From: Mycobacterium parmense
GTDB lineage: Bacteria; Actinomycetota; Actinomycetes; Mycobacteriales; Mycobacteriaceae
Direction: 5' to 3'
Assembly (NCBI RefSeq): GCF_010730575.1
Contig: NZ_AP022614.1
Location: 2,046,001 to 2,110,000 of the forward strand
Length of the DNA stretch: 64,000 nucleotides
Below are positions 44,232-46,146 of the stretch, piece by piece. A program made the translations under genes and the position numbers. Each line of letters starts with the position of its first letter. Positions within the stretch are counted from its first letter, which is position 1. The notes under the pieces were generated by a model, which was given only the letters and a program-made list of their open reading frames with translations, was not told the DNA's origin and searched no databases.

Positions 44232-44328
44232 CGATCGCGCCCTTCTCCCGCCTAAGCGGTGCGGATGTGTCGCGGGTGATGCTCAAAATTACCCGATGGA
44301 CGAAGCGATCAGAAATGTTCGGCAGAAT

Positions 44329-44355
44329 CACTAATGTACTAGTAGTTCATTAGTG
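44329..44355. promoter_or_regulatory. Palindromic operator between tetR and qcrB paralog
   Basis: CACTAATG and CATTAGTG form a perfect 8-bp inverted repeat separated by 11 bp (centre TACTAGTAGTT, itself partly symmetrical). The site is markedly AT-rich for this genome and stands 98 bp from the tetR start and about 130 bp from the qcrB-paralog start. It probably binds the divergent TetR protein and overlaps promoters for one or both genes. Confidence 0.75.
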
Positions 44356-44484
44356 TACTGTCTGTTCTATCCCGTCCGGCCCGCGGTCTCGCGCCCGCTC
44401 CTCGCCGCGACGGTCCCACGCGCGCTGGTCGTCCCCCGGGCCGACCGGCGGTCCCGGCTCGACCCACACCGGAGGGGAAAACAG

Positions 44485-46146
44485 ATGAGTTCGCGAATCG
44501 ACATGGGCTCGGTCCTCGCGCACCAGGCCGCGGCGACGGACACCCGCTATCACCCGGCGGCGGCGGTTCGCCGCCAACTGAACAAGGTCTTCCCGACGCA
44601 CTGGTCCTTCCTGCTCGGCGAGATCGCGATGTACAGCTTCATCGTGCTGCTGATCACCGGCGTGTACCTGACGTTGTTCTTCGACCCGTCGATGACAGAG
44701 GTCACCTACAACGGCGTCTATCAGCCGCTGCGGGGCGTCGAGATGTCCAAGGCGTACGCGTCGGCGCTCGACATCTCGTTCGAGGTGCGGGGCGGGTTGT
44801 TCGTGCGGCAGGTCCACCACTGGGCCGCCCTGCTGTTCGCGGCCGCGATCATGGTGCACATGGCCCGGGTCTTCTTCACCGGAGCCTTTCGCCGGCCGCG
44901 CGAGGCCAACTGGGTGATCGGGTCGCTGCTGCTGATCCTGGCCATGTTCGAGGGCTTCTTCGGCTACTCGCTGCCAGACGACCTGCTCTCGGGCACCGGC
45001 CTGCGGGCGGCGTTCTCCTCGATCACGCTGGGAATCCCGGTGATCGGCACCTGGCTGCACTGGGCGTTGTTCGGTGGCGACTTCCCCGGTGACGTCATCA
45101 TCCCGCGCCTGTACGCCATCCACATCCTGCTCTTCCCGGGCATCATGCTCGCGCTGATCGGGCTGCACCTGGCGATGGTGTGGTTCCAGAAGCACACCCA
45201 GTTCCCCGGGCCCGGACGGACCGAGCACAACGTCGTCGGCGTGCGGGTGATGCCGGTGTTCGCCGTGAAGTCGGGCGGCTTCTTCGCGGCGGTGGTGGGA
45301 TTGCTGGGCCTGATGGGCGGGCTGCTGCAGATCAACCCGATCTGGAACCTGGGCCCCTACAAGCCATCCCAGGTCTCGGCGGGCTCGCAGCCGGACTTCT
45401 ACCTGATGTGGACCGACGGGCTGGTCCGGCTGTGGCCGGCGTGGGAGTTCTACTTCTGGCACCACACGATTCCCGCCGCGGTGGCCGTCGCGGTCCTGAT
45501 GGGCGTCATCCTCGGCGCGCTGGTCGTGTACCCGTTCCTGGAGCGGCGGTTCACCGGCGACCGCGCCCACCACAACCTGCTGCAGCGTCCCCGCGACGCA
45601 CCGGTGCGCACCGGGATCGGGACGATGGCGATCGCCTTCTACATCGTGCTCACGTTCTCGTCGTTCAACGACATCATCGCTTACCAGTTCGACATCTCCC
45701 TGAACGCGATGACGTGGATCGGGCGCATCGGGATGGTGGTGCTGCCACCGATCGTCTACTTCGTCACCTATCGCTGGTGTGTCAGCCTGCAGCGCAGCGA
45801 CCGCGCGGTGCTCGAGCACGGCGTCGAAACCGGGATCATCAGGCGCTTGCCGCACGGGGCGTACATCGAAGTGCACCAACCGCTGGGCCCCGTCGACGAA
45901 GGCGGCCACCCGATCCCGCTGCAGTACCAGGGCGCCCCGATCCCCAAGCGGCTGAACAAACTCGGCATGGGCGGTCGGCCGGGCTCGGGCAGCTTCCTGT
46001 TCGCCGACCCGCCGGCCGAAGCGGGCGCGCTACTGCGGGCGACGCACGCCGGCGAACAGCGCGCCCTGACCGCACTGCGCGAACGCCAGAACGGCAACGC
46101 CACCAACGGGAACGGCCGGGCGTCACGGGAGGCCGACGAGGGCTAG
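44485..46146 (+). CDS. qcrB: Cytochrome b of the bc1 complex, solitary QcrB paralog
   Basis: A 553-residue integral membrane protein closely resembling mycobacterial QcrB (549 residues) over its whole length. The four haem-ligand histidine regions are intact (VRQVHHWAALLF, MVHMARVFF, AIHILLFPG, IGLHLAMVW), with the quinol-site segment WPAWEFYFWHH and the actinobacterial C-terminal extension (ETGIIRRLPHGAYIE). It is expected to oxidise menaquinol within the bc1-aa3 supercomplex. ATG 44485 has GGAGGGG upstream. Oddly, no qcrA, qcrC or ctaE is adjacent, while the normal qcrCAB operon lies elsewhere in mycobacteria; this copy sits behind a TetR operator. Its stop overlaps the convergent Rv1481-like gene by 4 bp. 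Confidence 0.92.
   Translation: MSSRIDMGSVLAHQAAATDTRYHPAAAVRRQLNKVFPTHWSFLLGEIAMYSFIVLLITGVYLTLFFDPSMTEVTYNGVYQPLRGVEMSKAYASALDISFEVRGGLFVRQVHHWAALLFAAAIMVHMARVFFTGAFRRPREANWVIGSLLLILAMFEGFFGYSLPDDLLSGTGLRAAFSSITLGIPVIGTWLHWALFGGDFPGDVIIPRLYAIHILLFPGIMLALIGLHLAMVWFQKHTQFPGPGRTEHNVVGVRVMPVFAVKSGGFFAAVVGLLGLMGGLLQINPIWNLGPYKPSQVSAGSQPDFYLMWTDGLVRLWPAWEFYFWHHTIPAAVAVAVLMGVILGALVVYPFLERRFTGDRAHHNLLQRPRDAPVRTGIGTMAIAFYIVLTFSSFNDIIAYQFDISLNAMTWIGRIGMVVLPPIVYFVTYRWCVSLQRSDRAVLEHGVETGIIRRLPHGAYIEVHQPLGPVDEGGHPIPLQYQGAPIPKRLNKLGMGGRPGSGSFLFADPPAEAGALLRATHAGEQRALTALRERQNGNATNGNGRASREADEG

Follow-up and report, generated by a model that had tools for sequence, protein, structure and literature searches.

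A solitary second qcrB gene in Mycobacterium parmense, an apparent remnant of a TetR-rhodopsin-blh-qcrB arrangement and a candidate for an alternative cytochrome b

The stretch of DNA analysed here, called the window, comprises 64,000 nucleotides of the genome of Mycobacterium parmense (contig NZ_AP022614.1, positions 2,046,001 to 2,110,000 of the forward strand). It contains a solitary gene for the cytochrome b subunit of the bc1 complex, here named qcrB2, which is divergent from the gene for a TetR-family regulator; the features of the locus are listed in Table 1. The product of qcrB2 scored 767.8 bits on the profile NF050120 (bc1_QcrB_actin), above the curated cut-off of 500, and solved mycobacterial QcrB chains (best PDB 7e1v and 8hcr) were aligned over nearly its entire length. 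The regulator carries the N-terminal DNA-binding domain PF00440 (38.2 bits against a cut-off of 24). The frame of qcrB2 is intact and full-length, and its neighbours include neither qcrA nor qcrC, as had been stated in an earlier reading of the window made from its letters (the sequence-only reading). That reading did not foresee what is new here: comparison with related loci shows, at the level of sequence, that qcrB2 originated as the third gene of a TetR-rhodopsin-blh-qcrB arrangement, of which the locus is a remnant.

Table 1. Features of the qcrB2 locus; coordinates are those of the window, and S1 denotes the TetR-qcrB pair described in the text
Feature	Coordinates	Strand	Basis
fabG1/mabA flank, then inhA and hemH	42774..43565	-	synteny in 11/13 S1 loci
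TetR-family regulator gene, 193 aa, divergent from qcrB2	43650..44231	-	PF00440
TetR-side regulatory region, homologous to the M. bohemicum pre-rhodopsin region	44232..44383	+	82% identity
Putative TetR operator, 27-bp near-palindrome	44329..44355		12/13 pairs match; alignment of orthologous regions
blh 3'-end remnant (beta-carotene dioxygenase), deletion scar	44391..44477	+	84% identity to M. bohemicum
Likely ribosome-binding site GGAGGGG, 7 nt 5' of the start codon	44471..44477	+	sequence
qcrB2, solitary cytochrome b subunit of the bc1 complex, 553 aa	44485..46146	+	NF050120 match
Rv1481-like flank gene, 4-bp overlap of its 3' end with the qcrB2 stop	46143..47150	-	open reading frame list, synteny

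QcrB2 was searched against 396 genomes of the genus, the 84 genomes with multiple matches (picked by eye) were searched again, and 122 loci were read. The TetR-qcrB pair, designated S1, was found in 13 of the 396 genomes, that of the window included, and an orthologous divergent TetR was present in all 13; the TetR orthologues beside the 12 other qcrB genes are 66.7-91.5% identical to that of the window. Hosts of S1 include M. bohemicum, M. helveticum, M. gordonae and Mycobacterium sp. Marseille-P9652, and at 11 of the 13 loci the pair occupies a slot between fabG1 and an Rv1481-like gene. The S1 copies formed one clade with a Shimodaira-Hasegawa-like (SH-like) support of 100 (FastTree, 119 rows), and this clade was placed by sequence among the mycobacterial qcrB genes.

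About 2.1 kb separate TetR from qcrB in M. bohemicum (L034) and M. helveticum (L037). A gene lying between them in M. bohemicum was identified as a rhodopsin by its match to PF01036 (E 4e-38) and is closest to PDB 9hfk (the top match), Gloeobacter rhodopsin and xanthorhodopsin. The second intervening gene of M. helveticum matched PF15461 and TIGR03753, which describe the retinal-forming Brp/Blh beta-carotene dioxygenase, and its stop codon overlaps the start of qcrB (ATGA). Rhodopsin and blh were both detected by tblastn in these two loci and in a locus from a metagenome-assembled genome (L156); the match to blh in M. bohemicum is spread over two frames, and the gene is possibly broken. The D, T and E positions, which we take to mark proton-pump rhodopsins, were kept in all 12 mycobacterial rhodopsin loci scanned, and the retinal-lysine pattern was present in 11 of these and was not found in L162. 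The genome to which L162 belongs (G358) has a second TetR with a rhodopsin at a contig end (L162/L194) and its TetR-qcrB pair elsewhere (L038).

Two blocks of the TetR-qcrB2 intergenic region of the window align with its counterpart in M. bohemicum: bases 1-152 with bases 1-153 (82%, 126/153), and bases 160-246 (87 bp) with bases 2005-2092 (84%, 74/88; E 8e-23). At the protein level the leader scored 67 against the C-terminus of Blh (z 9); the maximum among shuffles was 46, and none of 200 reached the observed score. The alignments show that about 1.85 kb, holding the rhodopsin gene and most of blh, has been deleted in the lineage of the window, so that the region that precedes the rhodopsin gene in M. 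bohemicum now directly precedes qcrB2. Shorter second blocks of 27 and 43 columns (E 2e-4 and 1e-6) were found in L035 and L036, where the protein-level test did not detect a blh remnant. In the M. gordonae group the leader of qcrB resembles, as judged by eye, the rhodopsin leader instead. When L156 and L160 are counted with the 13 S1 loci, rhodopsin-blh precedes qcrB in 3 of 15 and is absent in 12; the three rhodopsin-bearing loci sit at separate places in a TetR tree (built without RHO_L196). By its alignment the scar marks a loss in the window lineage, and for the other loci the counts alone fit gain or loss. A profile search with PF01036 gave no match in the genome of the window and matches in 32 of the 396 genomes; PF15461 gave no match in the window genome either, a result that is weak by itself because the search gave none in its controls. 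No paper joining QcrB with rhodopsin was found in the open-access library searched.

The sequence CACTAATGTACTAGTAGTTCATTAGTG lies between TetR and qcrB2, and 12 of its 13 pairs are complementary; the AT-rich palindrome described in the sequence-only reading is real, and the perfection ascribed to it was mistaken. It was matched in none of 300 mononucleotide shuffles of the 253-bp intergenic region. A motif derived from this site itself and its orthologues, allowed up to three mismatches, was expected 0.01 times in the window and occurred at a single place in the 5.95-Mb genome, read on both strands; a chance palindrome was ruled out by the shuffles, the expectation and this uniqueness. An operator-like motif was present in 22 of 23 TetR-side intergenic regions (it was missing in L198), as scored with a pattern written after the sequences had been seen, and only 12 of the 23 hold a palindrome at p <0.05 by mononucleotide shuffles. 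We infer that TetR binds the palindrome and represses from it.

Orthologues of TetR (62-70% identity) were also found beside rhodopsin and blh at eight loci that have no qcrB in the surrounding 11-12 kb, and seven of these eight carry the operator-like motif. In three of them a paralogue of ctaD, which encodes subunit I of the aa3 oxidase, follows blh: directly in L201 (G054), and after a gene on the opposite strand in L199 (G266) and L202 (G342); in L199 it is in pieces. At least two ctaD matches, some of them fragments, were obtained in 13 of 15 genomes searched. The rhodopsin-linked gene looks like a separate paralogue; its identity with core ctaD was rejected, its TPR neighbour being absent from 15 other ctaD loci in 8 genomes.

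Relatives of TetR, at E 1e-40 or better, were present in 28 of 401 genomes of the family, at 33 places, of which 20 were newly read (15 from other genera) and 7 had previously been in the set. In 18 of these 20 loci (L245-L264) TetR adjoins HAD, DDGS-like and ATP-grasp genes, joined in 16 of the 18 by an O-methyltransferase gene, and in 17 the HAD gene is divergent from TetR. Among PDB entries the DDGS-like protein comes nearest to 5tpr, which we take to be a gadusol-type synthase, and the HAD/DDGS-like/ATP-grasp set presumably makes mycosporine-like amino acids, that is, a sunscreen. The remaining two comprise a rhodopsin-blh locus of another genus with the operator motif (L245) and a TetR with a TPR gene. 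Two mycobacterial loci, L163 (M. kyogaense) and L262 (one of the 20), have as immediate neighbour of TetR the TPR gene found after ctaD in L201, and no rhodopsin, blh or ctaD match was obtained there. The full operator pattern was absent from the other 19 of the 20 loci; the stretch TACTGTAC is visible in many of them.

The genome of the window (5,952,912 bases, one contig) contains two qcrB genes. The core copy (968,641-970,287) follows ctaE, qcrC and qcrA in an intact operon spanning 968.6-972.4 kb, outside which qcrB2 lies; qcrB2 is thus not the sole copy, and the supposition that the window gene is a second qcrB was borne out. One match each was obtained for qcrA and qcrC. QcrB2 is 81-82% identical to the core QcrB of the same genome, and the loop after GGDFP is 10 residues longer in the core protein (L003). 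Ten alignment positions are histidine in every aligned copy, the haem ligands presumably among them, and the PDFY motif (residues 306-309) is kept in all S1 and core copies. The ratio of nonsynonymous to synonymous substitution rates (dN/dS) was 0.165-0.208 between qcrB2 and its three nearest orthologues, 0.07-0.28 across ten S1 pairs and 0.04-0.20 across eight core pairs. Being well below 1, these values indicate that qcrB2 is under purifying selection, and a pseudogene was ruled out by the intact frame together with the dN/dS within S1. The conserved haem histidine regions and the probable function proposed in the sequence-only reading agree with these results, to the extent that QcrB2 is apparently functional; loss of essential quinol-site residues, which had been named there as a sign to the contrary, was not seen in the alignment, the histidines and PDFY being kept.

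The start codon of qcrB2 is likely the ATG at 44485, which gives a product of 553 residues. A longer frame from a GTG at 44353 runs through the leader and the blh remnant, and the N-terminal extension that it would add is likely false. A scan for sigma-70 promoters found none. The names Rv1481, fabG1, inhA and hemH for the flanking genes are assumed by correspondence with M. tuberculosis. On its own strand the TetR gene is followed, after about 85 bp (window 43565-43650), by fabG1-inhA-hemH, and read-through of its transcripts into fabG1-inhA may occur.

Solitary copies are not confined to S1: qcrB without an adjacent qcrA was found in at least 55 of the 396 genomes. There were 46 solitary loci outside S1, in 46 genomes, four of which also carry S1, and the label of these loci alone requires 9 changes on the tree. 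Residue counts and tree were made without L092 and L093 (49% identical, cytochrome b of another type), L133 (partial) and L150 (385 residues, broken), and the core counts without L056; the loci read did not include two copies each in G088, G092 and G169, the first copy of G005 and several genomes with fragments only. Some solitary genes adjoin other regulators, such as a divergent TetR in L096, with no similarity to the window TetR detectable in the search used, and an AraC in L130. No rhodopsin or blh was found beside the solitary lineages outside S1 within about 2.5-3 kb per side, less at contig ends. A search of plasmids gave qcrB-like stretches in 57 records, of which 10 were listed and 4 read; none of the 57 covers 80% of the TetR-qcrB query, and at that sensitivity the pair was not found in that plasmid collection.

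Several further arrangements were observed. A separate solitary lineage (L096, L098, L100 and L101) is 70-72% identical and has many quinol-site changes. Four genomes (G006, G047, G203 and G228) have three QcrB genes each, namely the core, an S1 copy and a third with Q317 and P313 (locus pairs L041/L072, L039/L070, L040/L121 and L045/L110, respectively). In L056 (G026) the core operon ends in a qcrB-qcrB tandem, the copies of which differ at residues 180, 313 and 314. In two genomes a divergent second cytochrome b (49%; L092 and L093) has its own qcrC-like and qcrA-like genes. On a Rhodococcus plasmid (L232, NZ_CP077418.1, about 476.7-488.1 kb) a solitary qcrB has a phenazine-type cluster and a flavin adenine dinucleotide (FAD) mono-oxygenase gene as neighbours.

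We favour, with a probability of about one in two, the reading that qcrB2 encodes a TetR-switched, sunlight-linked alternative cytochrome b that would replace core QcrB in the bcc-aa3 supercomplex. TetR would repress qcrB2 from its single operator until released by an inducer, which is probably related to sunlight because relatives of this TetR adjoin light-pump and sunscreen genes. QcrB2 would then be made and, there being one QcrA and one QcrC only, would take the place of core QcrB by joining them; the subunit swap suggested in the sequence-only reading gains plausibility from the same single-copy genes. The exchange may keep menaquinol oxidation running where the standard subunit copes poorly, the candidate benefits being operation at high proton-motive force, replacement of a photodamaged subunit, an altered quinol site, or resistance to a poison. 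More tentatively, and with odds well short of even, TetR and its operator may belong to a sunlight-response family of mycobacteria and their kin that deploys sunscreen genes, a light pump and exchangeable isoforms of catalytic bcc-aa3 subunits, QcrB in one lineage and CtaD in another; as part of that same tentative scheme the respiratory chain would be rebuilt in the light with special isoforms, by analogy with cyanobacterial D1, and the window locus would retain only the respiratory arm of the response.

Several observations weigh against the favoured reading. The genome of the window has no rhodopsin match, so any link to light must act through the signal to TetR alone, and we know of no TetR protein that is a photoreceptor. 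Neither qcrB nor ctaD was found in the flanks read at five of the eight qcrB-less rhodopsin loci. The dN/dS within S1 is slightly higher than that of the core genes, and solitary copies vary at sites that are invariant in the core, for example 219, 348 and 476, which could reflect altered or lost contacts.

A different use of the same gene would be as a resistance isoform, in which case TetR would sense a poison of the quinol site, whether a natural one or one of the telacebec type, and a cytochrome b of lower sensitivity would be made in response. Residue 317 is V in all 13 S1 copies and A in 57 of 60 core copies, and other solitary copies often differ as well (I 15, Q 9, A 10, M 7 and L 4 among 45). 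In the accessible text of PMC6178619, A317V is named as a Q203-resistance single-nucleotide polymorphism, and that of PMC8616580 gives residue 317 as a contact of Q203; V317 is in this respect suggestive of a resistance-type residue, and the solitary qcrB beside the phenazine-type cluster on the Rhodococcus plasmid points the same way. The former source also reports, in the part available, that A317V gave no protection against AX-35, and V317 is one clade-level state. At residue 314, which is also a contact, every one of the 13 S1 copies has D, as do 8 of the 60 core copies; D314 and F161 are likewise present in all four plasmid copies read from other genera (Prescottella, Rhodococcus and Tsukamurella, the last in a full operon), which have A317. 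A first residue count had hinted at divergence of the quinol site, but a hot spot at the drug site was not supported when the 17 contact sites taken from the accessible text of PMC8616580 were compared, branch by branch, with sites matched for core variability: 46 changes fell on solitary branches against 54.6-59.3 under the null (p 0.75-0.85). One of the 17 may be wrong, that text giving Gly305 as a contact where the present alignment has Gln305. The resistance version proposed in the sequence-only reading thus keeps the match of V317 to a Q203-resistance change and loses the enrichment of contact sites. TetR also stands beside rhodopsin operons that lack qcrB. We hold the resistance reading to be unlikely.

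QcrB2 might instead stay outside bcc-aa3 and either supply some other enzyme with a quinone-linked cytochrome b or act as an assembly partner. No qcrA or qcrC adjoins qcrB in S1 loci, and, according to the accessible part of PMC7931247, the QcrB3 of Streptomyces coelicolor moves nitrate reductase Nar1 from one complex to another. The ten invariant histidines and PDFY, however, suggest a bifurcating chemistry at the Qp site that needs QcrA, and besides rhodopsin and blh no redox gene was seen to be common to S1 neighbourhoods, which leaves such a role distinctly improbable. We give as little credence to a passive duplicate trapped behind a rhodopsin promoter and retained for dosage or drifting. 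Extra qcrB copies are common, in at least 55 of 396 genomes, and CtaD is multi-copy too; against this, qcrB and TetR remain in the 12 of 15 S1 loci that lack adjoining rhodopsin and blh, dN/dS is 0.07-0.28 in the ten S1 pairs, and the scar is found in three genomes, clear in the window and shorter in L035 and L036.

Several drug candidates against mycobacteria are aimed at the cytochrome b of bcc-aa3, which most discussions treat as a single gene. With a further qcrB in at least 55 of 396 genomes, and a dedicated switch for the copy in the window, it becomes advisable to establish, before reading data on bc1 inhibitors, which QcrB the species in question expresses. The link to a rhodopsin operon has outlasted the loss of the rhodopsin, which makes a remodelling of mycobacterial respiration by light or a related cue testable. 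If the favoured reading is true, some mycobacteria may exchange a respiratory subunit upon a sunlight-related signal.

The window shares its orthologous TetR and the operator with the mycobacterial TetR-rhodopsin-blh operon and differs from it in that the rhodopsin and blh genes are gone, with a scar of blh only. In cyanobacteria, an isoform of PsbA (D1) induced by stress takes over from the core subunit in an electron-transfer complex; the likeness is one of analogy only, D1 being unrelated to QcrB2 and the exchange of QcrB2 being a proposal. The rhodopsin of M. bohemicum is closest to the type of Gloeobacter rhodopsin and xanthorhodopsin (PDB 6nwd and 3ddl), which has no match in the window genome. 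Proteorhodopsin genes are described in M. chlorophenolicum, M. chubuense and M. rufum and predicted to be horizontally transferred (PMC4524478), and linkage to TetR, an operator, qcrB or ctaD is not mentioned in the accessible text of that source. QcrB2 resembles the actinobacterial QcrB of bcc-aa3 (NF050120; PDB 7e1v, 8hcr and 6adq) in being a full-length cytochrome b with the same motifs, and differs in its place outside qcrCAB, its own TetR, V317 and the shorter GGDFP loop. QcrB2 and QcrB3 of S. coelicolor (PMC7931247, accessible part) are likewise alternative forms of cytochrome b encoded apart from the usual operon; QcrB3 differs in being 55% identical to its QcrB, and neither a rhodopsin nor a TetR-operator module is mentioned there. 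As for the S. coelicolor QcrB3 type, the extra qcrB of the window genome accompanies an intact core operon. In that same part of the paper QcrB3 is reported with bcc-aa3 components in spores, the authors adding that replacement of QcrB by QcrB3 was not unequivocally demonstrated, and QcrB3 is a precedent for an alternative cytochrome b associated with parts of bcc-aa3.

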